Source: Limnanthes douglasii subsp. nivea (lineage: Eukaryota > Streptophyta > Magnoliopsida > Brassicales > Limnanthaceae). From it: a stretch of DNA of 64,000 nucleotides. The translations under genes were made by a program, and so were the position numbers. Where the stretch lies: positions 320,804,893-320,868,892 of the forward strand of contig JAUPFV010000002.1 in NCBI GenBank assembly GCA_036936605.1. The letters are read 5' to 3'. Positions 3,029-57,514 of the stretch are shown piece after piece; position 1 is the first letter of the stretch, and every line of letters starts with the position of its first letter. The notes beneath the pieces are model-generated. The model ran no database searches, was not told where the DNA came from, and saw nothing but the letters and a program-made list of their open reading frames with translations.

Positions 3029-4603
3029 CTAAAAAATATTATTTTTTTATTTTATTTATTTTTTTTCTAATTTTTTTATTTTGATTCTTATATAATTTTA
3101 TTTTTTTATCATATGACTACTCTTATATAATTTTGGCTCTTATTATGTTGTTTGTTTTCTCTTTCGTTTTAGTTTTTGTGGCTATGTAATTTATTTTCAC
3201 TTTTGTTATCTCGACTATCTCGTAACAGTGTTCTTTTTAATTTTTACAGCGTATTTTGTTGGACACTACGGAAAATGTTAAGTTTAAAATGTGGAGTTAA
3301 CATAATTATAGTTTAAGTAACATTATAACAATTTTAAGATCTCTTGCGGATCTATATGTTATAGAATCTTAGAAATTTAACTTAATTCTAAGTGTATTCT
3401 TGCTAAGTTCGAAAACTGATAATTGTACTTTTATATATTTATTTGATTATATCCTAATCATATTATTATTTTTTGTTTAGGATTAAAATTATGAAAAGAT
3501 ATGAATACGTTGTGAATATAATATTTTGCATCAAAATTAATACTTTGATATAATATATTCTTCATATATAGTAGTTGGCATATAAAAAAATAAAACATGA
3601 ATTTTTTTCATAATACTTTATTGAATAAGGAGCTCTCGTGTCGAATAAACCTTTATGTATCTTTATGTATCGTGTTTAGAATTTTAGCTGGACTAAATTC
3701 AATTATTAAATGTTTCATAGTATTTTAACACCTAATACTCACCTACTATAGTGAAAGATATTGACAGGACATTTTATAAATGAATTAGTTAAAGAGAATT
3801 TTAAAAAACTAAATATTACATAAATCACACGAATTTATTTAAAAATTAATGTGTTTATTCCGAATTTATATATCATTTGGGATGTTTACCAGCTAACGCT
3901 CTTAACGAAATAGTTTGAGAATAATTGTCACATGGATACATAACACTAATTGAATACAAATTAGATGACTTTGTTTATTAAAAGAAAATGTTCAAAAGTA
4001 TGCTACTTTAATAATATTATGTTTGTTTAAATATAAAAAATATTAAATATATATTATCTCGAAACAAATATTAGAACATATGATCTAATTGTCTATGGTA
4101 GGAGACTAGATATAGCTTCATCTATACAATAAGGTAGTATATTTGAGATCGAAAAATGATATTATTAGTCTTAAGGGAATATGATTTTGAGAAAAGTTTA
4201 AATGCTTATACTAATTAGATGTATAAATAATCTGGTTTATGTTCAATAATCATATATCCATTTATTATTTGATTTAAGTGCATTTTATGATTAATTTCTT
4301 AATTTATTTTTTTCAAAGAATAAATCTAATTTTAAAATCAAACAAATCGACACATAGATCGTATTTAAATAAACAGTAAAAATAATAATAAAAAGAATTA
4401 AAATTATTTAGTTCGATATGTAGGTCGTTAAATATTTATCATTAGTTGATGATATTTGTACGCCTTATAAATTATATCATCAATTTTTTAGAATCTTTCT
4501 TGAATTATTGCAACATTTTAGAATGGAAAACATTAAGCTTATATATTGTTGTTTAGGTTAGATCATATATGTAATCTAATTCAATATCGTTTGATTTAAA
4601 AAT
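3029..4603 (+). repeat. 5' LTR of gypsy copy A (left part)
   Basis: It aligns by eye with 47385-48874 over its whole length, for example the shared run TTTGTTTTCTCTTT near 3150 and 47430 and GGTTAGATCATATATG near 4557 and 48824. In copy C this sequence ends about 90 bp before a gypsy-type primer-binding site, so it is LTR. The Mutator element interrupts it at 4603, and it resumes at 15715. The true left end lies in or before the N gap. Confidence 0.7.
4595..4603. repeat. 9-bp target-site duplication, left copy
   Basis: TTTAAAAAT, identical to 15715-15723. The empty site occurs once, at 48866-48874, in paralogous gypsy copy C. A 9-bp duplication is the Mutator superfamily hallmark. Confidence 0.92.
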
Positions 4604-4760
4604 GGGAAATTGTACTTAAAGTACCCACTCAACTATTCAATTGTCACTTACCACCCAAGGTTTGATCAATTGTTACTTAATACCCAACTCAACTACCTTA
4701 TTGTCACTTACAACCTAATTTTATTTTAATACCCTAACTACCCTTAACTCACCATATAAA
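4604..4760 (+). repeat. Left terminal inverted repeat of the MULE
   Basis: It pairs with the reverse complement of 15585-15714. Shared stretches include TACCCACTCAACTAT near the tip and GTTACTTAATACCCA further in. The repeats are diverged, with several mismatches and indels. The inner edge holds a TATAAA box at 4755-4760. Confidence 0.85.
4755..4760 (+). promoter_or_regulatory. TATA box for the transposase gene
   Basis: CCATATAAACC, about 845 bp upstream of the transposase ATG and at the inner edge of the terminal repeat. A transcript starting near 4785 would have a short leader exon to 4899, a GTTTGT donor at 4900 and an acceptor TTGTCCAG ending at 5592, so the 5'-UTR intron would be 693 nt. 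The transcript model is inferred. Confidence 0.6.
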
Positions 4761-5288
4761 CCTTATATTTCTGTTTTCTTTCTATGTTTTTCTAGCTTTT
4801 TGAAGATTTGAATTTGTTAGCCGCTCTAATCACCTAACCCTACCAACCACCACGAGCTGGGTTGAAATCACATTTTCCGGTGATCGGAAGCTGCTAAAGG
4901 TTTGTTTCTTTATGTAGGTTGTTGTGTTAGTCCTGTCTAACCTCTGTTTTATACGTACAGGAGTTGATCGTCGCTTTTTGGAATCTTATAGCTTACAAGT
5001 AATCGTGTTGCGAGTTTTTTAGGTAATTACCTACCGATTTCGAAGTTTTTTATTGGTTTTCTCTGTTGGAATAGGTTCTATTCTACTGTTTTTAGATGTC
5101 ATTGCCTGATTTCGAGCTTTCCTCTATTTTTTTTTTGTTATAGTGATCTGTTATTGTTTAGTTAATATTGTTCGTTATATAGTTATGTCCTTGTTTTCTG
5201 ATGTTATATTCTAATTTGGTAGTGCTTTAGTTTTGTCGTGAATGTGTAGATTACAAGTTTTTAGGTCAGCTAGAGTATTGTATTTCGA

Positions 5289-5576
5289 AACAAATATCAG
5301 GACCGGTGGTACATAGGAATATCAGGACAGGAGGCGAATAGCTCTATATAGATACACACAATTCGCAAGATAGGATGCGAATTGTTTGATGGTGCAGTAA
5401 ATAATTTGCACATAGTTTTTGTGACTAATAACAAATATCAGGACTTTTTTACATACAAATACCAGGACAAGATGCGAATAGATCGTTGTAGGTATACACA
5501 ATTCGCAAGATAGGATGCGAATTGTTTGATGCAGTAGTAAATAATTTGCACCTAGGTTTTGTGACTAATAACAAAT
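5289..5576 (+). repeat. ~140-bp tandem duplication in the transposase 5'-UTR intron
   Basis: Two head-to-tail units, about 5289-5430 and 5431-5576, each run from an ACAAATA(T/C)CAGGAC phrase to TTTGTGACTAATAACAAATA. Each holds one complete palindrome TTCGCA-AGATAGGA-TGCGAA (5362-5381 and 5502-5521) and one extra half-site (about 5335 and 5475). The units differ at several positions, so the duplication is not recent. Confidence 0.8.
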
Positions 5577-5600
5577 AACTTGTATTGTCCAGGTTAAGAG

Positions 5601-8164
5601 ATGTCTAAATCACGAGTTTGTATTTTTAAATATGGTCACCAAACTGCAATTGTGCCTTTCACGGAGTTTGAAAGCTTCGAAAGTATCCAAGCTTATGTAG
5701 AGGACACATGGGAGGAGCTTGCCACAGGTGAGTACCTAATTACTTACTCCTGCGGGGATCACAATACTTGTTTCTTTAATAAACAGAATGATTTTGTTGG
5801 GTTGGTGTTATATCTTGATTTGGAGCGTTTAAAACGGGTTAGTTTTCTCATAGAACAACACGTCTTCGATAAGGGTTCTGGTAATAAAAGTTCTGTTGAT
5901 AAGAGCTCTGGTGGTAAGGATTGTGGTGTAAAGCGTAAAGAGCGTAGCTTGATTTTGGGAGAACCATCTCTTGATCAACTAGTTAGCGGGGATAGTAGTA
6001 ACGGTTTAGTTATTTCTGATCAGAGGAAAAAACAACTTGCTCCTGCTAGTTGGGCTGATGCTATTAGAGGAGTGGGTCAAGATTTTGAAGAAGGTGATGC
6101 CGGTCTGAGGGTATCTTTGTGCAAGTTTGCGTTAGAGCATGGTTTTTCTTTCAAATACCTGCACACAACAAATAAGATCACTGCTTATTGTGAAAATAAG
6201 CTCACAAGCTGGTGCAAATGGAGGGTTTATGCATCTATTGACTCAAGCACCGGCCTTATGACAATCAAGAAGTATGTCTCGTACCATACTTGCAGTCCTG
6301 TTTTCTCCCAGAAGCATAAGCATAAGCGGCACAGGCATTTGACATCAGATTTGATTGCAGAGGAAATTCAGGATTCTCTCCGGACCTGCCATTCGTTGAC
6401 AGCCAAAACCATACAATCGACTGCCAAACAAGATTACGGTCTTGACATCTCTTATTGTTTATCATGAAATGCTTTAGAGAAGTCTAGGAGGGGAGTTTTT
6501 TGAGATAGTTCAAGTTCTTTTAGTTTACTAAGCGGATACTTCAAACGCTTGAAGAGCCAGGATATTACTTCAGACTGCCAGTTGGAGTTGTCAGCTGGAA
6601 ACCGAATCAAGCGCTGTTTTGTAGCATTCGGTTCGTCCCTTAGTGGTTTTCATTCATGCCGTCCAATGTTGTTTGTCGATGGAACCCACTTATATGGCAA
6701 GTACAAGGGTACATTGCTCACTGCTGTAGCAAAGGACGAAAACAACGGTTGGTTACATTTATCTAGTTAATGAACGATGTTTTTGTGTGAAAATGCTGAT
6801 GCACTTCGCAACATGTGATGCGAATTAAGCAGTGTTGTGATCCTCACATTTCGATGTGATGCGAATTAAGCAGCATTTGAGGCTGCGAATTATGTATTGT
6901 GCTGAGTAAACTGTACTTACATCGCAGCTTGAGTTAGGTATTATTTAAAGTTGTGACAAACAATTCGCATGACAAGCTGCGAAATATTTGCATGAGCAAT
7001 TAAAATGTCACACATATTTCGTATGACAAGCTGCGAATTGTTCCAGGACAGCATGCGAATTGTTTACAATTTTTAAACGTTTGCATACTGTTGTAGTCTT
7101 CATTTGATCTGCTTTTTTCCAGGACTATTCCCTGTTGTTGTTGTTGTAGTTAGCATTGAAGATTGGGACAATTGGATGTGGTTTTTGGGGTGTTTGAAAC
7201 CACATTTGCTGGATCGTCAGATCACATTTATTTCAGACCGTCATTCTGGTATTGTTAATGCTGTTTCTGTCTTGTATCCAAACAGCTATCATGCGTACTG
7301 TTATTTCCATCTCATGCAGAATTTGAAAGCCAAACTGGAACATACTAACAGGGAGTATAAAAAAAGATGTTGAGTTTCTTCCACCGTCTTGCTTATGCTC
7401 CCAGTCAAGAGCTTTTTAAAGATATACGAACAGGTTTTCTATGTGAAGGTGGTGAGAGAATGAGTGATTTTCTTGCACTTTTACCCCCTGAAAAGTATGC
7501 GCAGGCTTACGTAAAAGGGAAGCGATACGGCTCTATGGCTTCTACCGTAGCTGAATCATTTAACAATCAGATTAGAAAATATTGCGGCTTACCAATTGTT
7601 GAGTTTATTGATTGGATTAGAATCTTACTTATGACTCAAGTTTCACGGAGATGCGAAGAAGGTCTCAGCTGGAGTACTAATTTGGTTCCCGAGTACGAGA
7701 AGAAGCTAAAGCAGAATGTTGACATGTGCCGAAGTTGGGTAGTACGTAAGTCCTCTTCCGCCATGTTCCAAGTCTTTTCGAATCCTGTGGCTATTGTTAA
7801 TCTGTTGGATTTCAAATGTTCATGCGGATCATGGCCACAACAGTGTTTTCCATGTGCTCATGCTCTAGCAGCATTACAATACACCGACCAAGATCCATTG
7901 ACTGTAATAGAACCCTTCTTTACGGTTAAGAATTACAGGGAAAGTGACTCTTTCAGCATACCAGCTATAACTGATTTCGGCGAAGGGTCCAGCGCTAACG
8001 ATCCTTCTTTTGTTGAAGTTCTGCCTCCGAACGTTAAGAGACGCTCCGGAAGGCCTAAGAAAAAGAGAATCCCTTCTAGAGGAGAAATCTCAACCAAGAA
8101 GTTAAGATGTGGCCGATGTTCGAAATCAGGCCATAACCGGAGGACTTGTGATGTTCCAGTTTAA
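5601..8164 (+). pseudogene. MURA-type Mutator transposase, broken
   Basis: It starts ATGTCTAAATC right after a 5'-UTR splice acceptor. Residues 1-288 (5601-6467) end in a MuDR N-terminal DNA-binding-like region (about 170-285, KFALEHGFSF, CKWRVYAS, HTC). At 6465 the frame hits TGA where Trp is normal for this region, and the next ~80 bp are frame-disrupted. The DDE domain restarts by 6549. The first catalytic Asp is in FVDGTHLYGKYKG (codon 6678-6680) and the second in ISDRH (7236-7238), with YCYFH after it. A 375-nt intron (6748-7122) splits a Gly codon and joins DENNG to LFPVV. A 7-A run at 7359-7365 carries a frameshift. Domains beyond it are a SWIM zinc finger (CSCGSWPQQCFPCAH, about 7818-7862) and a CX2CX4HX4C knuckle (about 8107-8150). 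Everything needed is present except an open frame. Confidence 0.9.
6748..7122 (+). other. Transposase intron packed with TTCGCA/TGCGAA sites
   Basis: The donor is GTTGGT and the acceptor TTTTTTCCAG; joining them keeps the DDE domain in frame (phase 1, GGA Gly). It holds palindromes at 6805-6824 and 6964-6983, a variant at 7018-7037, and at least four single half-sites. The donor is a weak match to GTAAGT. Confidence 0.7.
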
Positions 8165-8279
8165 GGTCAATTCTGGTTGGCCATATCACATTTATTTTTG
8201 TATAATAGTTATTGTTCTGTACAGCAAACTAAACATTTGTACATTCCTGTGTGTTTGTATTTTCTATTATTGGAGTTGT

Positions 8280-8640
8280 AAGCATTTCGCATCCTGTGTT
8301 GCGAATTATGTACAATATGTTGATGTATTGTTACAAACATCTATCAGGACTACATGCGAATTATGTACAATTATGTGAAATTTCAACAGGATGCGAATCG
8401 CTAGTAAAATCATATCAAACATTTATCATATCTTACGTTTCGCATGATAGGCTACAAATTAGGGCCATAATTGTGATGCGAATGGAGATCAATTAAAGTG
8501 CTGATATTTGTCATATGGTAAGCTGCGAATTGTGATTTAATAAAAATACCAGGATATTCAGTAAGGTTCAAAATAAGTAATATAGCATGTTAACATGCGA
8601 ATGATGTGCAAAATATATTTGGATGCGAATCCTTTATATC
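8280..8640 (+). repeat. Motif cluster downstream of the transposase
   Basis: One full palindrome (8286-8305, spacer TCCTGTGT), a decayed one (8439-8458, second half TACAAA) and about seven single TGCGAA half-sites (near 8353, 8393, 8476, 8524, 8597, 8625) lie between the transposase stop and the small minus-strand gene. Confidence 0.85.
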
Positions 8641-8862
8641 ATTGAAACTCTGTAAACAAGTTGAATTACAAAAAGGAGGATTACAATATTTCCAGAACTA
8701 ACAACTGTTTACACATATCACTACAAGCTACTGGTGCTAGTTAGTTGCATTTCAAAAAAACAAAAAACAAAAAACAAAAACCAACTCTAGCAGTTGGTAG
8801 AGGATTCATCACCAATTGTTTCCTCTTTCTCCTCTTTGTGCTGATCATCTTTGTCTTTCTCC
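8641..8862. other. Convergent 3' intergenic segment
   Basis: It lies between the ends of the transposase (plus) and the small gene (minus). It includes an A/C-rich run at 8754-8780 that reads as a poly-A/T-like tract. No motif copies seen from about 8640 on. Confidence 0.4.
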
Positions 8863-9174
8863 TCATTCTCTTCCACTTTCTTTCTCTTCCACTTTCTCTT
8901 CAGCTTCAATATCTACGTCCATCATGCTTAAAAATTTTGTCCTTGATGGACCAGCTTCGTCTTCCCTCTTCCTTTTGTTGTTTTGAACCTCTGTCGTTTG
9001 AGGTTGCACCTGTTCTGGCTGAGGTGCAGCAGGAAGCATTGGAACCTGTTCTGGCTGAGGTTCAGCAGCAACCAGTGGAACAGCTTCCACTGGTTGAGAG
9101 TCAGCAGAGTAATAGTCATCATACATGTCTAGTTCGAAGACAGAGACTGGGCTGGGGGGTGGTACTGCTGGCAT
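8863..9174 (-). CDS. Small acidic, proline/glutamine-rich nuclear-type protein of the MULE
   Basis: An intact frame of about 103 residues begins MPAVPPPSPVSVFELDMYDD. It continues through two imperfect repeats of PQPEQV(P/Q) (about residues 41-58), a basic cluster NKRKRE (about 68-73) that looks like a nuclear localisation signal, AGPSRTKF, and an acidic tail (MDVDIEAEEKVEEKESGRE). An in-frame TAG lies upstream, so the start is at 9174 (or a TTG two codons earlier). A TATA box at 9368-9380 and a CT-rich leader precede it. I do not recognise a domain. Composition suggests a nuclear adaptor or regulator encoded by the element. It is the only gene in the element that I could read without a break. 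It could also be an orphan exon, but no splice acceptor is needed to explain it. Confidence 0.55.
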   Translation of the reverse strand: MPAVPPPSPVSVFELDMYDDYYSADSQPVEAVPLVAAEPQPEQVPMLPAAPQPEQVQPQTTEVQNNKRKREDEAGPSRTKFLSMMDVDIEAEEKVEEKESGRE

Positions 9175-9180
9175 GATCAA

Positions 9181-9540
9181 CTCATCACTCTAGTTAACGG
9201 TTAAGGATGACCAGGAGTCACCCAGAGAACCGAGTGAACCAGAGTTTGAGTATGAGGTGGTTTTTGTGGTGGTGGAAAAAGATATGACTATTTGAATTCG
9301 AAGAGAAGAAGAGGTGTTTTTAAAAAAATATAGAGTTTGGTGTAAAGTTAGCCTTTGGTTACTAGAGGTATTTATAGGGAAGGAGGTAATCATTACATAG
9401 CCTCCATGTCCAATCAGCATTTAATGAATTATGTACTTGATTAGATTGTTTTTTGTGTGCTCAATGGAGAAAACGTTTACCAAGGCATAAGCCACAGCCT
9501 ATTCGTATCCTTGAACTTTGTATTTTTAATTTTTTATTTA
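9181..9540 (-). other. Leader and promoter segment of the small gene
   Basis: From the TATA box down to the ATG, the minus strand is CT-rich (about 9330-9250), typical of plant 5' leaders. Upstream (9385-9540) I see no gene and no motif copies. Confidence 0.45.
9368..9380 (-). promoter_or_regulatory. TATA box for the small minus-strand gene
   Basis: CCCTATAAATACC on the minus strand, about 195 nt upstream of the ATG at 9174. Confidence 0.6.
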
Positions 9541-9775
9541 TGCACCAGGCTGCGAACTGGTTTTAAGCTGGTATACCAGGCTGCGAACTGTGGTGTAGTG
9601 ATAACCATCTATCAGGTTAGGCTGCGAACTATTTGATGATAAGTTAGGCTGCGAACTGTTCATACAGGTTAGGCTGCGAACCGTTCATACATACCAGAGA
9701 TTTGCTGCGAATTATTTGGTTGGAATTAATCGAGTATTAATCAACCCTTATATATCAGGTTATGATGCGAACCAT
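9540..9775 (+). repeat. Irregular tandem array of GGCTGCGAAC half-sites
   Basis: Seven half-sites in one orientation (near 9549, 9584, 9621, 9651, 9675, 9704, 9764). Most are preceded by CAGGTTAG or ACCAG and several are followed by TGTTCATACA. The pitch is about 25-37 bp. It lies between the 3' end of the protease gene and the promoter of the small gene. No paired palindrome occurs here, unlike in the introns. Confidence 0.85.
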
Positions 9776-10189
9776 AAGCTAAGGAATATTCAAAATTCTA
9801 AAGAAGTAATTTGTTTATGTATGGACAACAAAACTAAAAATTACAACATATGTATTTACAAGAAACAGATGTATTTACAAGCAATACACGAATCAGCCAT
9901 ATGCGATGCGGTCTTTGTCATTTAAAAAGTAATAAAACATTGCTCTGAAAGCAGTTACCATATCTGCATCGTATTTTTTCTGCACTGATCCATGCTCAAT
10001 AACATCTCTTGCATATTTGCAGACAAAGATACCACAGTCCACGGTGCCTCGCCTTTGTTGTGGGATGCCTCTTTCCACTTTCACCTTCCACCCTATATTA
10101 TATTTAGGTAGGAATCCTCTATCCAACAATAATTGATCTGTGTATAATAATTAGTGTTAGGAATAAGCACAAAAACAAAAACAGTTGGT

Positions 10190-10400
10190 GACATACAATT
10201 CGTATCTTAGGCTACGAACTATATGACAATGAATCCAACATAATTCGCATCTTAGGCTGCGAATTGTATGACAACAAATCTAACATGGGCATGTCACACG
10301 ATTCGCATCATATGCTGCGAATCGATTTATGGATAGGCTTCGAAAAAACAATTGATTTACTCACAATTCGCAGCATACCAGATCACAGTTCGCAGCATGC
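10190..10400 (-). repeat. Motif cluster in protease intron 9
   Basis: Palindromes at 10244-10263 and 10302-10321, a symmetric variant TTCGTA-N8-TACGAA at 10199-10218, and half-sites at about 10364 and 10388. The intron runs 10447-10138 (310 nt). Confidence 0.85.
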
Positions 10401-11334
10401 ATACTTAAAATGTGTTTAAATTTAAGTGTACAGTTTGGAATATTTACCAGTAGTGCAGGTGTCCTTGTGGTGGTGTCTGTGGCATGAAGCTTAGACATAA
10501 GCGAATTTTAGTTTGAAATTGTCCTGGCATCGATGTCGATGACGAGCAACGTCCAGTGGTTTACACTGTCCTTCGTCTCGGTGCACACTGGAACCATGAT
10601 GATGTTGGCATCTTTGCGCCTCATCCTAAAAGTCATGTCCACCAAATTTTCTACTTGCCACCCTGCTCGCATTTGATGCTGCATCCAAGCAAGAGTATAT
10701 TAAAATGAGAACATTTTTCTGAAAACTTTGTTCAATTTACCTGAGTTAAACTTACCGCAGTCATGCCCGAAATCAGTACGGCGTCGTGATGCTCTCCTTT
10801 AGCTTTAGTGCATGGAACTTTGTAGTCTGCTTCTTCAAGCATCTTTCGAATCCAAGCATCGATAACCTAAGAAAGGAGTTGTAGATTTATGTTAAATATA
10901 GAATACATATTTGAAACATTGAAAATAGAATTGGTTGACAATTGGATACCTTTACGTACAGCTCCAGTTCTAAAGGTAGTGCCATGACATCACTCGCTTG
11001 CACCCTGATTCCGTATGTAAACTTGGACTCTGGTAACTGCCATACCACTGGATGAGGGGTGTCGCTCTCGTAGGCTTTAACCAACTGTATTTTGTGGTAT
11101 TCTGCCAGATCGATACGGTCAGTTACTTTTGTTTTCTTTGGCCAGTCGCTGTATTCTACTACTGGCGGTTCCCGTATTATTATTACGAACTCTTCTTCTT
11201 CCTCTGCCACTTGAGGCTGCGTTTGTGTCAGTAGAGTAAAACTTGGCTCCTCTATCTCTTTACTGGGCTCGAGCTTAGTAAATAACAAAAATCAAAAGTA
11301 GAAGGGCGTCAGTGATTACAAGTGCAACGAGTCC

Positions 11335-11470
11335 AAACAGTTCGCATCTTAGGCTGCGAAATGTATGGTTCCAGTTAAATAAATTTATTAGTATCCATCA
11401 GGGTAAGGTGCGAACTGTTCGAGGTTCCACTGAACAGTTCGCATCATACCCTGATATTCGTTTGTAATAC
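11335..11470 (-). repeat. Motif cluster in protease intron 6
   Basis: One palindrome (11341-11360, spacer TCTTAGGC) plus half-sites near 11409 and 11441, in an intron of 259 nt (11532-11274). Confidence 0.85.
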
Positions 11471-11984
11471 CCCAATCATCATTAGACACAAATCTCATGT
11501 TATGATACGAAATCATTATAAGTAGGCCTTACCGCACGGTCAGCGACAACCACTGCCGTTGACTTGTTCGGCATAGGATCTGGATCGTGTCGGCAGAAAT
11601 CATTAAAGTTATCCTCCGACATGTTCTCGAAAGACCGTTATATTATAGAATCGTAATATACATTATCAATTTCATTTAAAAATGTCTGTGAAACTTGAGT
11701 GTAAATACCATCAACAAAAGCATCGGGTAAACCTACTATGTTATCGTGTGACTCTGGAGCTGGCAGTTGATTTGTTACCGGGCCTACAGTTTGACGTTGG
11801 CTTAGCAATTCTGACTTTGCTGACAGCACCGTTGGTCTTTGAGGTTCCACCGAAGAAGTGGTGTTGTCTTCTAAGGATGGTCCTTCCTGGCTGAGTAGTT
11901 CTGTCTTCTCACCGGGATGGACAGGTTCTGACTCTTGAGGTGCTATCTCTTGAGTTACCCTTTCTCTCTTCGCCAAGGTTATCT

Positions 11985-12354
11985 GTTGCTGTTGTTGTTG
12001 TTCTTGTTGCCGGTCTTCGTGTTGAACCTGTAGCTGCTGGGGTTGTTGCTGGTGATGTTCTTCTTGTTGTTGTTGCTGGGGGAGTTCTTCTTGTTGTTGC
12101 TGTTCGTATTGTTGTTGTTGGTTGTGTTCTTCTTGGTCTTGCTGTTGGGTTTGTTGTTGTTGTTGTTTTTCTTGTTGCTGTTGTTCTTGTTGTTGTTGTT
12201 GTTGTTGTTGCTGTTGTTCTTGTTGCTGTTGTTGTTGTTGCTGGGGGTGTTCTTCTTGTTGTTGCTATTGTTGTTCTTGTTGTTGTTGTTGTTGTTGTTG
12301 TTGTTGCTAGTGGTCTTGCTGTTTCTGCTGGTGTTGTTGTTGTCTTTCAATCTC
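11985..12354 (-). repeat. CAA/CAG trinucleotide tract coding poly-Gln
   Basis: In the protease frame (codon starts divisible by 3) this reads IERQQQHQQKQQDH, then long Q/E runs, and joins directly to TLAKRERV downstream. The frame of the ORF starting at 12350 reads Asn instead, and the plus strand reads Leu/Val/Cys; those are shadows. Two CAG-like positions have become TAG (12309, 12267). CAA outnumbers CAG, with occasional GAA and AAA. Confidence 0.85.
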
Positions 12355-12419
12355 CTATTTCATACAAAAATATAAAAAAAACAAAAGGGTGGAAGGGTTA
12401 AGCATAAGTTAATCATTAT

Positions 12420-12550
12420 TGAACACGATTCGCATCCTGACTTGATATCTATGTTATACATTCCTAACAATTCGCAGCTTAGCATGCGAATTGTGTAATA
12501 ACCAAACCCACCAGTTTATTACATAATTCGCAGCTTAAGCTGCGAAACGT
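12420..12550 (-). repeat. Motif cluster in protease intron 5
   Basis: Two palindromes, 12471-12490 (spacer GCTTAGCA) and 12527-12546 (spacer GCTTAAGC), and one half-site near 12429. The intron is 256 nt (12610-12355). Confidence 0.85.
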
Positions 12551-13459
12551 TTAGACAAGACTACACAAGAGTCCTGATATTTGTTTGATAACATTATATC
12601 ATCTACTTACATTATCTACCTCCTCTGTATGTGTCTCCATGATGGGTGAATTGTAGGCATCATCGTCCCTTTCTTCCGGCAGTACTCCATCAGCATGGTG
12701 CTGATCAGCATTAGACACGGATGCTTGCTGATCAGTGGATTTTTGTCTCTCTGGAAGTGTTGCTGGTACCTGCTCTATTGGGCTTTCAATACGGAAAATT
12801 GGTTGAGAGATAGCATTGTGGAGTTGTTGTACTTCAAGTTCCGCTATCTTGCATTTCAATTCTTTCAGCTGTAAAAATGATAGCAAACTTTTTATAAACA
12901 TATTAAGTGCTGATTGTAGTGATTATTTAAGGTTACTTCTCTGGCCTGTTTTTCTATTTTTTGCTCGTACTTGTTCTTGTCGGCGTATGTCTTCAAACAC
13001 TTTGATTGAGCAGCAATATCGGGATTAGGATCTCTGAGTTTGATTACATACTGACCGATTGTTTCACTCATACTGGTTGTGTCGGTGTCGAAGGGCTCCT
13101 GCCTGGATTTGCCTTTCGGTTGTGGTGGAATCGTTTTCTTGGGGAGTCTTGGTGGTGGAATCGATGGCTCAGGTGGTGTTGGTTGTTCGATGGGAGACAT
13201 CACCTTATTCATTACATTCTGTGATGCTCGTCTCCTTTGTTTTAGTTTTGATGCTGTGCTTTTCGTCCTCTTCCTAGGTCTTTCTTCTGGTGAAGTTGAT
13301 ACCGTTACTTCTGCATCTTCATTATCTTCTTGTGGTCCGAAAGCTTCAATTTCAGCCTCGGTAAGCTGTAATGGACCTTCTAAAACCTACCAACAGAAGC
13401 ACATGTAAGTAAATTAATTGTTTCAAAAGTATGAGGGTGTAGACAAACAAATTGTTTTT

Positions 13460-13750
13460 TATAAACAGTTCGCATCATATGATGCGAAATGTGTGATTTT
13501 AAATCACATTTCGCATGCTGAGCTGCGAAATGCGTATGGGACAATATGCTGCGAACTATATGTAAAACATATGATGGGAACTAAGTGTAAACCATATGAT
13601 ATGAACTAAGTGTAAACCATATGATGCGAACTAAGTGTAAACCATATGATGCGAACCGTGTTGGAAAAGAAGCTGCGAAGTAAAATTCATATCAGGCTGC
13701 GAAATGATTGATACATTTTTCTAAGCAAAACGCATGATATGATGGGAACT
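13460..13750 (-). repeat. Motif cluster and 24-bp tandem repeat in protease intron 3
   Basis: Palindromes at 13469-13488 and 13510-13529 lead into about four tandem units of GTAAACCATATGATGCGAACTAA (about 13556-13655), each holding a half-site or its decayed form (GGGAA, ATGAA). Two more half-sites lie near 13672 and 13696. This is the longest coding-region intron (403 nt). Confidence 0.85.
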
Positions 13751-14854
13751 CTATGCATCCCCAGTTCAATACATATATAAAGCTTATACCTGGTCATTAT
13801 CCAGGTAGGGTGTTCTAAGAAGATATGTCATGGTTGATGCTTGGCACTCTAACCCCAACCATTTGAATAACCTTGGTATCGAGGTTGGCTTCGCTACCTC
13901 GTGGCCGATTGTTGTGTGCTCCATGATGAAGGGCTGCATGGGGACAAGTTTTATCAACACGATGCTATGTACATAACTAATTTTGGAGTTTATTTAATAG
14001 ATCAATCTTACAACTACAAGGGCGACGCAGCCGACGACTTTATCAGCTCTTTCTACTACTAAGAAACTCCTGATAGACTGTCGAAGCTTGAACAGTATTG
14101 ATCCAGCCCAGTCATAATTGTTTATTCTGTTGAGGTCTTCAACGTAATAAACCGTGCTCCAGCCCAGGATATCTCCAGACACGGAGTAAAATAGCGTGGA
14201 GCACAAAAACAGTATCAACAACCTCGCCACGTCTTCCAATTCATGCTCCCCTCCTTCGTTTATGGCCTTCTCTATACCCTCCTGTAAAACCAATGACAAC
14301 ATGCTATGTTAGAAATGTACAGAATTTTTCTTTATAAAGATGAAGTCCATTTTAGACGTACCTTTATAATGGCATTTGTTAGTGTTTTGGTATTACTAGC
14401 TGCTACTTTCCTGCCAGTTTTACCCATGAAGTATTTCTTCATCATCCTTGATTCGTCCTCCTCGCCGGGTGCATACTTGTTGTGAAAAGCTCCGGTTTTT
14501 GTTAACTCCATTTTCTCGGTGCCATGCCTCAACCCGAATATGATCTTGATATCCTTTTTAGTTAGCTTTGTATACTTGTTTCCAATCCTAAAGGCGTCTC
14601 TTTCCAGAGAGAATTTCTCGATGATATACTGAATGATTTGGTATAATATTTTCCTTGTGAGCTCTTCCTCATTACGGATTTCGAACGCCGTTTTCAGAAG
14701 CGTGTAGAAGGGTGTATTTCTACATGCTTCAATGTGGGCCCTTGTAATACGCATGTCTTTGAGTAGCTTCAGAAGGCTCACCAACCCTGATATGTAGTAG
14801 CTAGGTTTTGTTGTCATACTTTCTGCACAAACACAAATCAGATGGAATGTCACA

Positions 14855-15005
14855 AATAATTCGCATCACAAGCTGCGAATTGTATAAATATAAATATTGT
14901 TTTAGCAGACAATTCGCAGCTTGAGTTGCGAATTGAATGTAAATAAGCATAAACATACAATCGAGCTGCGAATTGCTTGCATAGTGGGTGATTAGGATGC
15001 GAACT
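14855..15005 (-). repeat. Motif cluster in the protease 5'-UTR intron
   Basis: Palindromes at 14860-14879 (spacer TCACAAGC) and 14913-14932 (spacer GCTTGAGT), and half-sites near 14965 and 14997. The intron is inferred as 15303-14823 (donor CAG|GTATGC, acceptor TTTGTGCAG). Confidence 0.8.
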
Positions 15006-15009
15006 GTTA

Positions 15010-15600
15010 CACTTTTTACATGCACGTTGCAGGGATCTGGGAATTATGCAACAAACACCAAAATCAACAATGAACTACCTAATGCAAATCTAACATACAT
15101 AATATTTCTCAGGAGAGTATTAGTATTACATGCAACTAAAATTCTACCTTGGCTTCGACTATAAACCCATAAACTGAGCAACTATCTTCAGTAGATACTT
15201 CATTCTAGTATAAAAAACAACGCATATCGTGAATTAACAGAAAAAATTGGTTCAAATTCGTCAAAAACGCAAACAAAAGTACACTTTCCACGATAATGCA
15301 TACCTGTTAAATTTCACCAGTCGGAGAACGAGATTGGAGCTTTCAGAGACGACTTCACGACAACTTTGTCGAACGAGATTGAAGGTGTGTAGTCTGAGTG
15401 AGTAAAACACGCTGACCGGTGCGATAGTGTCGAAGGTGCGAACGGTGAGAAGCTGTAGGGTTTTTGGGTTTGAGAGAGAGAGAGTATCACGAAGTCGAAC
15501 GGTTTTTTTTCTGGTGGTTTCTAAAATTAGAATTTTGCGTTTGTTTAGGGTGATAGGAAGGTCGAAAAAGTGGGTTGGAATTGAAAAATGGGTATATATA
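15010..15600 (-). promoter_or_regulatory. Promoter and leader of the protease gene
   Basis: A minus-strand TATA box, CTATATATACC, lies at 15592-15602 at the inner edge of the terminal repeat, mirroring the transposase side. The leader exon would run from about 15560 to 15304. Between 15010 and 15300 I see no motif copies and no gene. Confidence 0.55.
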
Positions 15601-15714
15601 GTGGAAGGGTATTTTTGTCCAATTTATTAATCTGGGTATTAAGTAACACTATGTTAAAAGCGGGTACCGCCGGGTAATAAGATAGTTGAGTGGGTATTTT
15701 CAGGTACTTTTCTC
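15585..15714 (-). repeat. Right terminal inverted repeat of the MULE
   Basis: On the minus strand it begins GAGAAAAGTACC, then TACCCACTCAACTATCTTATT, and shares GTTACTTAATACCCA with the left end. It is diverged from the left repeat. Confidence 0.85.
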
Positions 15715-15723
15715 TTTAAAAAT
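15715..15723. repeat. 9-bp target-site duplication, right copy
   Basis: TTTAAAAAT, identical to the left copy. The following TCAAGAGAAAGAAAAG matches the empty-site paralog at 48875. Confidence 0.92.
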
Positions 15724-35460: not shown

Positions 35461-37760
35461 TGTGGAGTAAGATTATTAAATCGCTGACAGCAAAGATGCC
35501 CTATGAAGCATGGACAAGAGACAAGACAAACATAGAACATCTCCGTATATTCGGTTGTATTGCACATGCCAAGGTACCAAACATTTATACTAGCAAGCTG
35601 GATGACCGAAGTAAAATATTGATTTACTTGGGGTGAGAAACAGGAACTAAGGGATGTCATCTATAAAATCCCAAAGACAACAACATCTCTATGAGTCGAA
35701 ACATAGTTTTTGAGAAAGACACAGCCTGGGTATGGAAAAATCAAGACGATTTCGACGCTGGGAAACAAGGCAGTTTCTCTGTGGTTAGTATCACTGTCTA
35801 TGCAACACCAACAGGAATAACCCCACTTGCAGATGTGGGGAAGATTAATTCTGAGATAACATCTGCAAGCAGTGCAGTTCGTACAGATAGTAGTAGTGGC
35901 GATTCTCAGGACATTACAAGTGTTGGTGGCGATTCTCAGGGCAATAAGTCAAGTAGCAGTGCTGGTGACTCTCAGAGTACTGCAATTAGTGGGCCTCGAC
36001 GTTTTTTACTGTTGAGTGATGTGTATGATCAAATATACGATATTGAGGTGGAGCAGGAACTCTTGTTGGGAACTGCGGAGGAAGAGCCTACGACGTATGT
36101 TCACGCAACAGGTGAACACAAATGGGAAATTGCCATGAAGGATGTGACCGATGCCATAGAGAAGAACCACACCTGGGAGTTGGTGACATTACCAGCTGGA
36201 CACAAACTCATCGGCCTCAAATGAGTTTATAAAACCAAACGAGATTCAGATGACCAGATCATCAAATACAAGGCTCGTCTCGTAGTCAAGGGATAAGTAC
36301 AAAAAGCTGGGATAGATTTCGAAGAAATATTCGCTCTAGTTACACGTATGGAGACCGTTAGACTATTGTTGGCTCTAGCAACAAGGAATGAATGGGAGGT
36401 CCATCACTTGGACGTAAAATCAGAGTTTTTGAACGGAGAATTGCAGGAAACAATGTTCGTCACACAGCCTGAAGGTTTTGTGAAGGAGGGTAAAGAACAC
36501 ATGGTGTACAAGCTTCTGAAGGCTCTTTATGGTCTGCGACAGTCTCCAAGGGCCTGGTATTCGAGGTTGAACAGATGTTTGGAGGATCTAGGCTTCACCA
36601 AGTGTCCCTATGAACATGCTGTTTACTTCAAACGCGAATGATGTGAAATTCTGATCATCGGGGTATATGTCGATGACTTGTTGATTACAGGAACAATAGG
36701 CAGAAGGGGACAGAGTTTGAAATGAGCGACATGGGCAAGCTCTCCTACTACTTGGGCATTGAAGTGAGTCAGACGGATGGCTGCATCAAGTTGAAGCAAG
36801 TGCTTACGCAAAAAAATTATTAGAAAAGGCTGGCCTTAGTGAGTACAACTCTGTTCGATATCCGATGGAGCCCAAAATTCAGATTGTGAAAGACGAAAAG
36901 GGGAAGGCTGTTAACTCTACACAGTTCAATAGTCTTGTTGGAGGCTTGAGGTATTTAGTCCATACACGTCCTCATATATTGCACACTCAATTGGTGTAGT
37001 TAGCAGGTATATGTTAGCAGGGTACTCCGACAGTGGCTTGATGGGTAAAATTGAGGACAAAAGAAGTCCTGAAGGGATGGCTTTCTATCTAAATGAAAGT
37101 CTAATTGCCTAGGTATCACGAAATCAGAGGTGCGTGGTGTTATCCTTATGTGAAGCGGAGTTCATGGCTTCTACTGCAGCGACATGTCGACGTGTGTGGC
37201 TGGGCAATTTACTGGGCCAGTTGAAAAACTCAAAACCTCGCCCAGTAGTTCTTTACATAGACAATAAATCTGCGATTGATTTGGCGAAGAATCCGGTCTT
37301 TCATGGGAGTAGTAAACATATCGATATACGTTATCATTTTATTCGTGAGTGTGTTGAAAGATGGGAGATAATCATTAAACACATAAATACACATGAGCAA
37401 CGAGCTGACATCCTAACAAAGTCAATGCCAGCAGTGAAGTTTGAACAAATGCGTGATCTACTTGGAATGAAGGAGGTGCAGACAAGTATTTAGATTAGGG
37501 GGAGTATGTTGGAAATAATCTAAATAAATTGTTTGAAATAAATTAAGTAGTTTTGTTATTATTTGGATAGGTAGCATTGCTTGTTTTTAGGCAGAACTGG
37601 GGTAGTGCAGTTGCTTGTTTTTAGGCAGTTTATTTTTTTAAGTACCAGTTTAGTATATCCTTTATGTCAAGCAAAATTTATAGTAACATTTTTGTTTTCT
37701 ATATCCACTTTATTACTTTTGCTTCATATTTGTGTGTGTATTCTGGTGTTTAAGACTTCA
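35461..37760 (+). mobile_element. Ty1/copia element, 5'-truncated, with 3' LTR
   Basis: It begins inside the integrase C-terminal region (KMPYEAWTRDKTNIEHLRIFGC, 35480). It continues MSRNIVFEKD (35691), then a Ser/Gly-rich linker, the reverse transcriptase (WEIAMKDVTDAIEKNHTWEL; LDVKSEFLNGELQE; YVDDLL near 36670; SDMGKLSYYLGIEV) and the copia RNase H (SLCEAEFMASTAATC; YIDNKSAI; HIDIRYHFIRE; RADILTKSMP). Stops occur at 36222 and 36292, with a frameshift after YVDDLL. The purine tract TTAGGGGGAGTA (37496-37505) is followed by an LTR from TGTTGG (37507) to ACTTCA (37760). The 5' LTR, gag and most of integrase are missing. Confidence 0.85.
37507..37760 (+). repeat. 3' LTR of the copia element (254 bp)
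   Basis: It starts TGTTGGAAATAATC after the purine tract and ends CA exactly where the MADS homology starts. It includes a local repeat TTGCTTGTTTTTAGGCAG (twice, near 37580 and 37610). Confidence 0.75.
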
Positions 37761-38145
37761 CTTATGTGATGTTAAAGTTTGTACCGTCATACAAAGCGAG
37801 TTCGACACTGAACCCATCATTCAACCTCCTATTAGGAAATCCATGAACATGGAACCGGAGCAACGAAAGAGAAATATGGTCGACCAAGAGACATAACTAC
37901 GCGAGAAGATAAAGAAATTCTGGAAGAAGTGCGGAGAGAAAAGCAAGAAGAATCATGAAATGTGGATGACTCACGTTATGTTCCCACTCACGAACGGTGA
38001 GATCGAGGTAAAAGACCCCACCTATGATGAACTCATATGGGTTATGGTGATAAACAATCAATATCCAAAGGATATTCAAGCAAGGTATGAATTTCTCAAA
38101 AGAGCTGCAAGTGCTTCGGCGAGTTCTTCAGGGCCAACTCATTGA
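37761..38145 (+). pseudogene. Type I M-gamma MADS-box pseudogene, copy 2 (3' part)
   Basis: It begins CTTATGTGATGTTAAAG, i.e. inside the MADS box (LCDV), directly after the copia LTR. It runs through EFDTEPIIQPP, a short deletion relative to copy 1, a basic helix (LREKIKKFW) and THVMFPLTNGEIEVKDPTYDELIWVM to the same stop as copy 1. The C-terminal 60 codons are open (37960-38145). The 5' part was lost with the left half of the copia insertion. Confidence 0.8.
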
Positions 38146-38537
38146 ATTCAACATTCATAAGTTACAAATTTCAAGCGTTGCTCGATTGTTATGTTGTTCA
38201 TTTTCGGTTCAACATTCATAAGTTATACGTATCGTTCATTTTTAGGGGCTGTACCCAATCATGTGTACAACTTTTTGCATAATATTAAAAAAAATCAAGT
38301 TACAAAATCACCCACAAAAATACGGGTTCTTGCTCAAACTTTCGAGATTCAAAACCCAAGATTAAAAATAAATAATTAAGATATGTTACCCAAATAATTT
38401 TGGGTTCTTGCTCAAATCTTCGAGATTCAAAATCCAAGATTAAAAATAAAGAATTAAGATATGTTAGTAGGTGTTTATGCATTAGGATTCAATGGAGAAG
38501 AAAATGAGAACCAATATATTAATGTGTGTAAATAGGT
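38146..38537. other. Spacer with a 78-bp tandem duplication
   Basis: Units 38311-38388 and 38389-38466 share GGGTTCTTGCTCAAA, TTCGAGATTCAAAA and AAGATTAAAAATAAA. No gene seen. Confidence 0.6.
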
Positions 38538-38906
38538 TTACAAAGATAAAAATATATGGACTAAGCTAAACTCATACCCGTTTTTCTTAGAATGAAATTT
38601 CTTAGAATGAAATTTCATATTGTTACCTTTGACTCTCTGGGTTACAGGTAAGTTTTGGTAAGGTAAGTTTATTTTATGTGTTGAATTAGTCAGTGTAGGT
38701 GAAGAGTCATTATTGTTAGAATCGGGTAAATGATTAGGTATAGAAGCAGAGGAAATGTTTGATAGAATAGGAGTCTCACCATATGTCCTAATATTAGGAA
38801 ACTGAGGTATACACATTGACCTAGACTTGGAAGAACCGACACCTGAACTTAAGAAACCAGTAGAAGATGGAAACTCATCTTCATTGAAGATGACATTTCT
38901 AGAAAT

Positions 38907-39679
38907 CTAGACTTTACCCGTAGAAATTAGACACCTATACCATTTGTTGACGCAAGTGTAACCTAGAAATACACATTTAATAGAATGATATTGAAACTTG
39001 TTTGTCTGGTAAGGTCTAAGACAAGGGAAACAAGCACACCCAAACACCCTTAGGAACCCATAGTCTGGTTTGACAGCAAACAACTTTTCAAATGGAGACT
39101 TCACTTGTAAAACAAAGTAGGGAGCCTATTAATTAGATATACAGCAGTGTGAAATGATTCAGGGAAATATTTGAAAGGAATACTAGACTGAGATACCAAA
39201 GTCAGACCAGTCTCAGTGACATGTCTGTGCTTTCTCTTTGCTCTCCCATTCTGAGCAGAAGAGTAAGGACAGGATGTTCTGAGTTGGATTCCAAACTCCT
39301 TTGCCAATGAAATAAAAGATTTGAACTCACCACCCCCATCTGACTGAAAGCATTTAATTTTCCTTTCAAACTGATTTTTGACCAAGTTTTTGAACTCTCT
39401 GAAAGCTTGTATAGCATCATTTTTAAGTTTAAGTGGATACAACCAAGTGAACCTAGGAAAATCATCCACAAATAGTATGTAAAATTTGTTTCCTTCCTTA
39501 GAAACCACAGGAGAAGATCCCCATAGGCCAGAGTGTATGAGATCAAACACATTAGCAAAATGAGAGAGAGATTTAGTGTAAGGAAGAGAGTGAGACTTGC
39601 CAAATTGGCAGTCATCACAAAAGAACTTTTCATTATTCAAACTGATAGGTAGATTGCATTTTTTCAGAATATCTGACAT
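38907..39679 (-). pseudogene. Copia integrase
   Basis: It begins at the tail of the GAG-pre-integrase zinc region (FFCDDCQFGKSHSLPY). The D,D-35-E core follows: first Asp region DLIHSGLWG (usually D.H.D.WG), FVDDFPRFTWLYPLK, second Asp in FQSDGGGEF, Glu-side motif SSAQNGRAKRKHRHVTE, where the usual Glu of NG.AER reads Lys. A stop at 39101 is followed by the C-terminal module (PFEKLFAVKPDYGFLRVFGC..CFPCLRPY..NKF) in another frame. The damaged catalytic positions make it inactive. Confidence 0.85.
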
Positions 39680-39959
39680 TACCCTTATAGAAGGGTGGCC
39701 TAATCGCTTATGCTAACCCTTTTTTTAAAAAATATACAAAACTAGACTGGACCGAAACATGATAAATTCTAGAAACAAACTCTAAGACCTCATCTTTAGG
39801 ATGTATAAGAGCAGAAGATAATTGCCCCATAACACTAGGATTATCCCTGTAGTAACAATAAGCGCCTCCATGGCCATACTTACCACAGATTTGGCAGATA
39901 ACCTTGTTGTTAGAATTGAATCTATCTCCTCCTCTTCCTCTGTAAGCACCTTTGCCTCT

Positions 39960-40814
39960 TTAGTTATTGTTGTAATTTTTTGGATACCTTCCTCTGTAGG
40001 TACCTCTTCCATGTCCTCTGCCTGTGTTCCTTGAACCAGCACTATAATTGTTACTAAAAGACCTAGAATAAATCTTGTTAGAAGAGGTCAAATTAACATC
40101 AGCCATAGTTGATTGTAACTTGCCTAGTTGATCCAATCTACTTTCATAAGTCAGTATAATAGCTTGAACATCAACCCAACTTTTCACCCCTTTATCAGCT
40201 AGGTGAACTGAAATTGGTGTATACTCAGTATCTAGACCAGCTAATACTTGAGTCACCAAATCATCTAAAGGCACATGAGAACCTGCTAAAGCTAGATTAT
40301 CTGCGATATTTTTCATTCTAGCCATGTACTCTTCCATTGACAGACTTCCTTTTCTCATCCTTTGAAACTTTGCCTTGAAAAACATTACTTTGGATTTGGT
40401 TCGGGAGCCAGAAAAACGAACTATTGCATTCCAAAGGCCTTTGGAGGTATCTTCCTCCATTACTTGGGATGCCATTTCTGGACTCATTCTGTTATAAAGC
40501 CATCCCAGCAACAATTAATCCTTTGCGATCCAGTTATCGTGCTCTATATTTTTCAATTACCAGTCCATCAAGACTACTCACAAGCTTGGCAGGACATGGT
40601 TTATCATATTGATGAAACTTCCCAGCTTATTACCCTTTATAATAGGTAAGACCATTGTCTTCCACAACATAAAATTAGTTATGTCAAGTCTCAAGTTATT
40701 AAACGTACTTATCTGATTCAACTGTGTGCTCTTGTTACTTAGCAGACTATCTAACGGTGAGGACACTTGATCAACATAACCGGAGCTGAATGAAGGAGAG
40801 CGAGTTTCAGCCAT
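39960..40814 (-). pseudogene. Copia Gag (UBN2 type)
   Basis: The start is MAETRSPSFSSG at 40814, just after the primer-binding site. It includes SPLDSLLSNKSTQL and LWKTMVLPIIKGNKL, then a frame break near 40570, then KGLWNAIVRFSGSRTKSKVM, LSMEEYMARMKNIADNLA, LAGLDTEYTPI and a Gly/Arg-rich tail (RGHGRGTYRGRYP). A CCHC-like region appears to follow at 39900-39850. Retroviral-type capsid role. Confidence 0.8.
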
Positions 40815-53002: not shown

Positions 53003-53510
53003 ACATGTTTCCGATCATAGAAGGTGGGCTGCCTCCCAAAGATTTATCTTCTGACCCAGATCCGAAGCTCGTATACAAACGAATTCCTCAAGCCGATTGC
53101 AAAGTCTTTCTCCCAATTTGGAACAGATCAGACAACCATCTGCCTAAATAGAAAAAAGGAAAAAATGACCAAAGAGAAAAAAAATACAAAAATGCAGTTA
53201 GCACATCTGGTGCTAACCCTTCCACGCCCTCAAAACCGAAGCGTCGACCCAATGGAACATGTTTTCGATCATAGAAGGTGGGCTGCCTTCCAAAGATTTA
53301 TCTTCTTACCCAGATCCGAAGCTCGTATGCAAACGAATTCCTCAAGCCGATTGCAAAGTCTTTCTCCCAATTCGGAACAGATCAGACAACCATCTGCCTA
53401 AATAGAAAAAGGAAAAAATCACCAAAGAGAAAAAATGCAAAAAGGCAGTTAGCACATCTGGTGCTAACTCTTCCACACCCTCAAAACCGAACCGTCCAAA
53501 ACGCAAAGTT
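53003..53510 (+). repeat. 254-bp tandem duplication in the antisense ORF
   Basis: GATCATAGAAGGTGGGCTGCC starts at 53013 and again at 53267. The units stay alike through CTGCCTAAATAG and GCACATCTGGTGCTAAC. Both contain the same TAG (about 53149 and 53403), so the stop predates the duplication. The copies differ by point changes and A-run lengths. Confidence 0.85.
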
Positions 53511-55277
53511 GCAGAACAACCTCTTTCACCCATCGAAGAGGGGGAAAATCAAGAAAACTCATCAAAGAAGAATAAAATACCTTCTGATTCCTTCGGAAAG
53601 AAGAAGAAACAAAGAAAAATCACTTCGTATAAATTGATTGATGAGCATGAAGACGATGCTGCTGGAAACCAACAACAACAACAACACCCTCCAAATCCTC
53701 CAACCGAAGATAATTCCTCGCAAGACAATCCTATGATTATACGATGACTTTTCTCCTACCATTTATCATCGTCCCACAAGTTTCGACCCAGATATGTTCA
53801 TCAATTTTGAAAACACAGAGGAATTTGCTGGCGAAGAGGATCCTACCCTTCAAGTCATTCAGAATCACATGCTTGATTTTGCGAGGCCTACTCCATAGAA
53901 AAATCTTCCAAAATCGACTCGTTCCTTCGAACCTGTTACATCTCTAGATATGATTGACAAGCCTAATACCTCGAAATATTGCAGCCCTTCTCCAAATCCT
54001 GCAATTGATGTTGCTCTTCAACCATTTTCCAGTCTTGATACTGCTGCAAAAACTCTTGCCTCTCAAATTGAAGCCTCTCAAGACCATCTCAAACAGCTGG
54101 CCAAGGATATGGTTTATCAATAACGAAGCTTATGAGTCTGAAAAGAAATTCAGAGAGACCTTGCACAACAAAGTATCAGAGCAGTTTTATGCCTATGAAA
54201 TAGCTAGATCCGAGCTGATAAAGCCGCTCTTTGTAGAAAAGATCATCTTTGAATCAAGCATATGGTCAACACAGAACTGCTCACAAAGTCTCATGAAGAC
54301 AAATTAAAGAAACTCAAAACCGAGCATGTCGCTGAATTGAACATTGAAAGGTCCAACTCTACCACACTTCAAAATTCTCTAACTCTTTGCGAGAAAAAAA
54401 TAAAGATTTCTCCGATGAGATAGGAAATTGAAGAAGAATTTTGAAGCAGAAAAAGTTGCGGCTGTAATCACTGCCGAAGCTGAACTTTCAAAAAATATGC
54501 AGACAACTATTCAGGTCGGAAAAGAAGGTGAAACTATCCTTCTCCTTCGAGAATTCCATGTGGCCTATCCAAAAATCAACCTCACAAATTTTTGGAACGA
54601 TATTTCCAAAGAAAAACATCCAAGTGAGGCATTCGACCCTGTTGCCAGCTCATCTTCTTCAGAGGACGAATCGTCCGAAGAAGAAGAATCTTCTGACTAT
54701 CTAGTTTTTTCGTTTAGTTTTTTTTTTCGTCCTTGTCTAATCAGAATATCTCTTTTGTATTGTAACAACTCGATCTGAATGACAAAGAGTTCTTCCTTTT
54801 GATGTCGTTATTCTCTTACATATTATTCGATGCTAAATACCAACTCTTAAAAAATAACAAGTATTGGTTTCTTCAAAAAGATATGAATGTGTTGTTTTTT
54901 TCAAAAGATATGAATATGTTGTTAAGTTTGATTAGCTCATCAAAATTCTCAGATACTTTAAAATTCCAAATGTAAAATCGTTGTAAAACATGGTTATCTC
55001 TTCGAAAAGTGTTAAAAACACTTCAGAATATACTTCCCTTAACTAATCTCAAAAGTGATCAATCTTTGATGATTTGTTAAGATAGTATCCAAATAAATGT
55101 AAAATAACCATTGCCCAAAAATAACCTTTATTGATAAAGTTGGATATGTACAAGTACATGACGCCTCATTAAAAGCTTCCTAGGCCAACGGGGTAGGAAA
55201 GAGTGCGCCATTAAAAACAAAAATTCTCAAGTATAAACACATGTCTACTCCCAATAAAGCTTCAAATCTTGAATATT

Positions 55278-56000: not shown

Positions 56001-56129
56001 GATTAATGCCTTTTTATATAAAATTCCATCCAGAACTATATATCAAAAGACTTTACCCCTTGACTTTTTAGCCAATTGAGAATCATCTGGCAGTAATCCT
56101 TGGGTAAAAAAATTAAGAATATCAGATCA

Positions 56130-56540: not shown

Positions 56541-56754
56541 TCCCTCCACCTGAAATGCTGGACCCTCCACCTGTTCGAACAATCCACCTCAAATCTATAG
56601 GAAAATATTTTGTGCTTTCTTCCTCATCCGATCTAATTGAGTGGAACTCAACAAAAAAGTCAGCCAATGACTGTGCCTTGATTACTGTTCGAGGTGTAAA
56701 TAAAATATCATAGTCTCCCAACTCCACTGACTATTTGGTCATTGTTCCGAAATA

Positions 56755-57488: not shown

Positions 57489-57514
57489 CCTATAACAATG
57501 GTGGCCTCTATCAG

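Follow-up and report, generated by a model that had tools for sequence, protein, structure and literature searches.

Genes and boundaries of the element

The window analysed here, a 64-kb stretch of Limnanthes douglasii subsp. nivea (64,000 nucleotides of contig JAUPFV010000002.1), contains an 11,111-bp Mutator-like element (MULE) at 4604..15714 (no strand assigned), which carries three genes and, almost exclusively in its non-coding DNA, an array of the spaced palindrome TTCGCA-N8-TGCGAA. The element is delimited by an exact 9-bp target-site duplication (TSD), with TTTAAAAAT on both flanks (4595..4603 and 15715..15723, no strand assigned), and by degenerate terminal inverted repeats (TIRs), which, over the outermost 200 bp, align locally with 126 identities in 156 aligned columns and 49 gap positions. 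A preliminary description of this DNA had placed a Mutator-like element at these coordinates, and the identical flanks, the TIRs and the MULE transposase domain described below all bear this out. The transposase gene is on the plus strand, while a small middle open reading frame (ORF) and a large Ulp1 gene are on the minus strand; the gene models were drawn by us from the sequence, without RNA data.

The transposase gene (5601..8161, plus strand) was delineated from Pfam domains and ORFs and modelled as two exons with an intron at about 6768-7123. Its product matches the MULE (PF10551, E 3.1e-10) and SWIM (E 1.8e-4) domains, both above cutoff, and also DBD_Tnp_Mut (E 4.9e-5), but the latter below its cutoff, and a CCHC knuckle (CX2CX4HX4C) was recognised by eye. 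The gene is broken by two in-frame stops ahead of the first intron and by a frame change near 7361. The middle ORF (8866..9189, minus strand) has no Pfam match at E 0.01, and its frame is apparently interrupted at a 16-bp tandem duplication (8866-8897).

The large gene (9902..14817, minus strand) was given a ten-exon splice model, in which exon 10 is out of frame with exon 9 at the chosen splice sites. Its C-terminal part matches Peptidase_C48 (Ulp1) in Pfam with an E of 9.6e-12, and the relatives of this domain in PDB are SENP and Ulp1 chains (best E 1.8e-4). The model holds four in-frame stops, three in exon 6 and one in exon 9, although the last of those in exon 6 might instead be the true end of the gene. 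When the Ulp1 domain (9902-10678) was aligned at the His, Gln, Cys and Asp positions, which we take to be catalytic, the first three were found to be kept and the Asp position to hold Asn, beside an in-frame stop, so that this copy would not give an ordinary active protease. A long, low-complexity exon of glutamine repeats (11641-12354) separates the N-terminal part from the protease.

The combination of a MULE-type transposase domain with a 9-bp TSD is that of a Mutator-like transposon, and a gene with an Ulp1 (C48) domain lying antisense to the transposase is that of the KI-MULE or Ulp1-bearing type; judged from its sequence, the element is best explained as a Mutator-like transposon belonging to the Ulp1-bearing VANDAL/KI-MULE type. 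A table in the portion of PMC6446971 used here gives the VANDAL group a transposase with SWIM and CCHC, a 9-bp TSD and TIRs that are short, degenerate or absent, and these traits are all present in our element (the CX2CX4HX4C by eye), even though they are not unique to the group. The same table gives PMD and/or DUF domains in half of the VANDAL members; no Pfam match to either was found in the element's proteins, a trait that is not universal in the group. Relatives of the C-terminal part of the transposase were sought in viral_contigs, where 10 stretches fit the pattern and none was confirmed, and in plasmids, where there was no match. Rfam returned no match at gathering thresholds.

A palindrome of fixed spacing repeated across the element

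The exact TTCGCA-N8-TGCGAA occurs 14 times in the element and is absent both from the remaining 52.9 kb of the window and from 300 dinucleotide shuffles of the element. All 14 copies begin at the bases given in the preliminary description, whose statements that the 8-nt spacer is fixed and that no spaced pair exists elsewhere in the window are likewise upheld: with TTCGCA followed by TGCGAA at spacers of 0 to 40, recurrence is seen at 8 alone, spacers 32 and 34 giving one match each. With up to two mismatches allowed at spacers 0-30, there are 18 pairs at spacer 8, ahead of spacer 19 with 8 and of spacers 0 and 15 with 6 each. A count of every exact 6-mer inverted pair in the element at spacers 0-30 puts this palindrome at the top with its 14 copies, followed by its own extensions (7, 6 and 4), whereas outside the element the leading entries are simple repeats, runs of TATATA/ATATAT reaching 15 at spacer 0. 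As a yardstick for chance, AATTCGCA-N8-TGCGAATT is present 6 times in the 11.1-kb element, compared with 1 stretch in viral_contigs and 102 stretches, 80 of them listed, in the prokaryote genome_contigs (described as 257 billion bases).

The palindromes, to which no strand is assigned, extend over most of the element. The first (5362..5381) belongs to the non-coding DNA at the left terminus and falls in a 140-bp tandem repeat, whose first copy contains it and whose second copy contains the next one (5502..5521). Two are in the transposase intron (6805..6824 and 6964..6983) and one is intergenic (8286..8305), while seven fall in introns of the Ulp1 gene (10244..10263, 10302..10321, 11341..11360, 12471..12490, 12527..12546, 13469..13488 and 13510..13529) and the last two are upstream of the start of that gene (14860..14879 and 14913..14932). 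Three variants that had been proposed earlier were also confirmed, with one mismatch at 7018..7037 and two each at 8439..8458 and 10199..10218; in the last of these, a 45-bp tandem copy of the site at 10244, the change is symmetric in both halves.

The element contains 61 half-sites, where its dinucleotide shuffles average 4.5 and reach 14 at most, and the remaining 52.9 kb contains 10. The 61 are made up of 28 within palindromes and 33 single ones, in agreement with the earlier estimate of roughly 30. The single half-sites are mainly one-directional (28/33 along the plus strand, 5 opposite), as in a group of seven with a single orientation at 9551..9771 (plus strand), partly within a 25-bp tandem repeat (9613-9691) and containing no palindrome, and in a group of five at 13544..13703 (plus strand), three of which are in another 25-bp tandem repeat (13544-13656). 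Isolated half-sites do exist outside the element, as had been described, but the five listed were incomplete and four of their coordinates were 2-4 bases off; the further ones are at 1531, 1801, 50173, 57569 and 63440.

Placement in non-coding DNA

According to our gene model, 5,825 of the 11,111 bp are coding, and 60 of the 61 half-sites are non-coding, the exception being that at 7652. All nine non-coding segments of at least 256 bp hold 4 to 9 half-sites, and eight of them hold palindromes; these site-bearing segments belong to genes on both strands. When the whole site set was rotated round the element, thereby keeping its clustering, one coding half-site or fewer was obtained in 96 of 11,111 placements. 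Distances of 758 bp and 782 bp separate the outermost palindromes from the element ends, and no palindrome is within the TIRs. The five introns of 68-84 bp (10679-10755, 10867-10949, 12869-12936, 13934-14017 and 14282-14361) contain no half-site. Intron sizes in the model thus fall into two classes: the five short introns lack sites, and five others, of 256-403 bp, have them, which looks as though introns had lengthened by gaining the motif.

The 15-bp unit and its symmetry

Alignment of the 61 half-sites showed that the TGCGAA core, which is as real as first described, belongs to a unit of about 15 bp rather than 6, YAnGMTGCGAAYTRT, with YAnGM before the core and YTRT after it. Beyond the core, G is found at -2 in 52/61, A at -4 in 48/61, T at +7 in 46/61 and G at +8 in 43/61. 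A unit matrix trained on 59 of the 61 half-sites that it scored (those at 7652, which is coding, and 15437 were dropped beforehand) reached at least 14 bits at 60 places in the element and at a single place in the rest of the window, or 5.41 versus 0.019 matches per kb.

A palindrome is two such units placed head to head, and the symmetry of the 14 copies continues, imperfectly, into the spacer, where a central TA is present in 8/14 and the second spacer pair is C/G in 9/14. Beyond the arms, complementarity is seen at the second base in 13/14 and at the sixth in 11/14, and at the first, third and fourth in 8/14, 8/14 and 9/14. The 33 single units have flanks resembling those of the other units. 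In 7 of these 33, A[TC]CA stands at offset -12, the place of the second half in the N8 register (mean per offset 0.5, next highest 3), and the full TATCA is there in 5; a TATCA-like half would represent a weaker second contact in the N8 register beside some single units. Another candidate, [TC]CAGG at offset -6 (4/33 single units), was rejected as a separate motif given that it overlaps the YAnG of the unit.

Tandem repeats, turnover of cores and CpG content

Four tandem arrays, with periods of 140, 25, 45 and 25 bp, bear the motif and hold 13/60 of the non-coding half-sites, the other 47/60 being outside them. In two 45-bp tandem copies (10197-10286), the palindromes read TTCGTA..TACGAA and TTCGCA..TGCGAA, with a matching change in both halves that keeps the dyad symmetry. 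Two units of the 25-bp array at 13544-13656 have changed cores (TGGGAA and TATGAA) with the rest of the unit intact, indicating that the core is turning over. We also considered whether purifying selection could be read from the 140-bp duplication, where 0 differences are seen in the 28 bp round the palindrome and 31/149 overall, but gave this argument no weight because the differences cluster at one end.

Every exact half-site contains one CpG, and 61 of the 312 CpG of the element sit in half-sites. The direct deamination products of the core, TGTGAA and TGCAAA, occur at 0.7 and 1.2 times their outside density. Nine one-mismatch cores have unit-like flanks, and in these the CpG is kept in 6 and lost in 3, none of the losses being by transition; in the eight two-mismatch cores with such flanks it is kept in 2 and lost in 6, two of these by C-to-T/G-to-A transition. 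The idea that the core CpG never decays was dropped in view of these losses (3/9 and 6/8). Nothing points to a wave of CpG decay, nor is there proof that the CpG is protected, the evidence being weak either way.

A putative target array of an anti-silencing protein

Some known MULEs are organised in a comparable manner. In the excerpts of PMC5735166 used here, VANC21 is found at the introns of VANDAL21/Hiun in Arabidopsis as well as at its intergenic and terminal non-coding DNA, where the VANC21 motif is dense, same-oriented and spread by tandem repeats, and the loss of methylation follows the occupancy of the element by VANC21 (PMC5735166, PMC10398659, both in part). According to the parts consulted of a 2026 review (PMC13317346), the VANC gene of some Vandals includes an Ulp1 domain, and these elements recognise motifs of their own and bring about hypomethylation; in KI-MULEs, the Ulp1 domain is antisense to the transposase (PMC2528002, in part). 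Our element resembles VANDAL21 in being a MULE with a dense, short and partly tandem motif, same-oriented, in introns, intergenic and terminal non-coding DNA, and resembles the Ulp1-bearing Vandals and the KI-MULEs with KIU genes in having an Ulp1 gene antisense to the transposase as one of three genes, as far as the consulted parts of PMC13317346 and PMC2528002 describe them. Two traits of a VANC target array are thereby present, a dense family-specific motif in non-coding parts, as seen in this one copy, and, in part, the spread of the motif via tandem repeats.

On these grounds, which are those of sequence and analogy, the array is probably the target of an Ulp1-type, VANC-like anti-silencing protein that is encoded by the family and has its own motif. 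The dimeric site and VANC-like array that had been suggested earlier hence persist as the best reading, given the N8 geometry, the non-coding placement, the partial tandem origin and the antisense Ulp1 gene. Given that Ulp1-bearing Vandals recognise their own motifs and that the layout is that of KI-MULEs, we infer that the Ulp1-domain protein is the likely reader. A sequence-specific protein of the family, most likely this one, would bind each 15-bp unit, as a head-to-head dimer at facing units and elsewhere as a monomer or through a weaker second contact at a TATCA-like half. The high density of sites over non-coding DNA would confine the protein to copies of its own family, and the bound protein may then strip silencing marks from the whole element, permitting its transcription and movement. 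Since the genes of the present copy look broken, an intact relative would have to supply it with the protein.

Within this anti-silencing scheme, it is possible, though doubtful, that the target is specifically a CpG-cored site of dimer geometry, TGCGAA facing TTCGCA at N8, with TATCA as a second type of half-site in register. With a CpG in every half-site, the factor could begin demethylation only by reading or tolerating methylated CpG, or else would be blocked by it. If true, this would provide a methylation-sensitive on/off switch, which the CpG-free motifs of VANC21 and VANC6 could not offer likewise, and a route to learn how anti-silencing proteins start on silenced DNA. A target code of different geometry, beyond the Arabidopsis motifs compared here, would also join the few known transposon-encoded anti-silencing systems, and the motif is usable for locating the other copies of the family and its active protein. 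Sasaki in 2022 reportedly described Ulp1, DUF1985 and DUF287 domains as gained and lost, with at least ten systems in Arabidopsis, and specificity as set by motif sequence, density and helical periodicity; a spaced-palindrome target might be among those systems.

Several observations weigh against the reading of the array as the target of a VANC-like protein. Site distances show no helical (10.5 bp) phasing: the vector strength at 10.0-10.75 bp was 0.10 or less in two sets, one of 94 distances of at most 200 bp between sites on the same strand and one of 33 distances of at most 120 bp separating single sites on the plus strand. Moreover, two of the four spacer pairs are complementary in just 2/14 and 5/14 palindromes. 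The VANC21 motif YAGTATTAY has no CpG and is not described as a spaced palindrome in the excerpts of PMC5735166 used, whereas the target here is a two-unit dyad with N8 between its cores and a CpG in each half; the motifs given there for VANDAL6/8 with VANC6, AGTTGTCC and AGTTGTAC, also lack CpG. Counts of YAGTATTAY, AGTTGTCC and AGTTGTAC are 1, 0 and 0 in the element versus 4, 0 and 3 outside, hence none is enriched, and our spaced-palindrome target with its CpG would appear to differ from the Arabidopsis VANC motifs, as represented by those in PMC5735166. The candidate binder carries Ulp1, unlike VANC21, and the DUF1985-like label once attached to it, DUF1985 being a trait of VANC proteins, was not confirmed: residues 1-288 have no Pfam match to DUF1985, DUF287 or PMD at E up to 10, in a search where most matches above about E 0.1 were dropped by the tool, and a diverged DUF1985 could still be contained in the protein. 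The one weak match in this part, Utp8_C (E 0.059), is below its cutoff, no DNA-binding domain was identified in the Ulp1-domain protein, and the predicted structure of exon 1 is worthless (mean pLDDT, the predicted local distance difference test, 42.6). A second copy of the element was not detected by blastn within the window, family members were not seen in any collection searched, and all three genes of the element look interrupted. KI-MULEs are moreover called non-TIR, whereas the present element has TIRs, though degenerate.

Alternative explanations

The sites of the array could instead be bound by the element's transposase or by a TNPA-like accessory protein in end recognition or synapsis. 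In En/Spm, the TNPA sites are subterminal copies of a short motif that occur in both orientations and are bound by a protein of the element; our sites are alike in being a short motif repeated in both orientations and cluster towards both element ends, and an element with three genes could encode such a protein. However, they are spread through the interior and introns, seven interior non-coding segments being filled with them, and the distance of the outermost palindromes from the ends, together with their absence from the TIRs, makes a role in end recognition rather improbable. A dyad of fixed spacing is typical of dimeric factors, and clusters at 5362-5521 and 14860-15003, each upstream of one of the outer genes, would fit a host transcription factor used by the element for stage-specific expression. 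We regard this as unlikely, given that sites are also found in introns and in the spacers flanking the middle ORF, and that the single match at 14 bits in the other 52.9 kb leaves the unit nearly absent from there; to our knowledge, though no motif database was searched, there is no plant factor with a TGCGAA-unit motif. Among the matches listed for TGCGAA as a transposon motif in the literature, there was no plant MULE paper by title.

The inverted repeats could also form hairpins in RNA or DNA, or be sources of small RNA, rather than protein targets in duplex DNA, and the complementary bases outside the 6-bp arms, above all the second and sixth, would be expected of them. Yet 33/61 units have no exact partner arm and keep their flanks nonetheless, and the symmetry reaches a centre that could not pair, an objection softened by the two spacer pairs that seldom match; this explanation seems very improbable to us. 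Lastly, the array might be a non-functional repeat spread by tandem duplication and conversion inside the element, as could be argued from the tandem arrays and from the decayed cores, 9 with one mismatch and 8 with two, in which unit-like flanks persist and CpG has often been lost. The exact spacing, the avoidance of coding DNA and the majority of half-sites lying outside the four arrays make it quite unlikely, and the lack of enrichment of TGTGAA and TGCAAA also speaks against it, though the decay evidence is weak either way.

Other features of the window

Elsewhere in the window, ORFs resembling polyproteins of Copia-type and Gypsy-type retrotransposons were recognised by eye at 35667-40514 and 55278-59421. 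ORFs at 53021-53637, in a gene-like region, include a tandem duplication, with nearly identical stretches about 254 bp apart.

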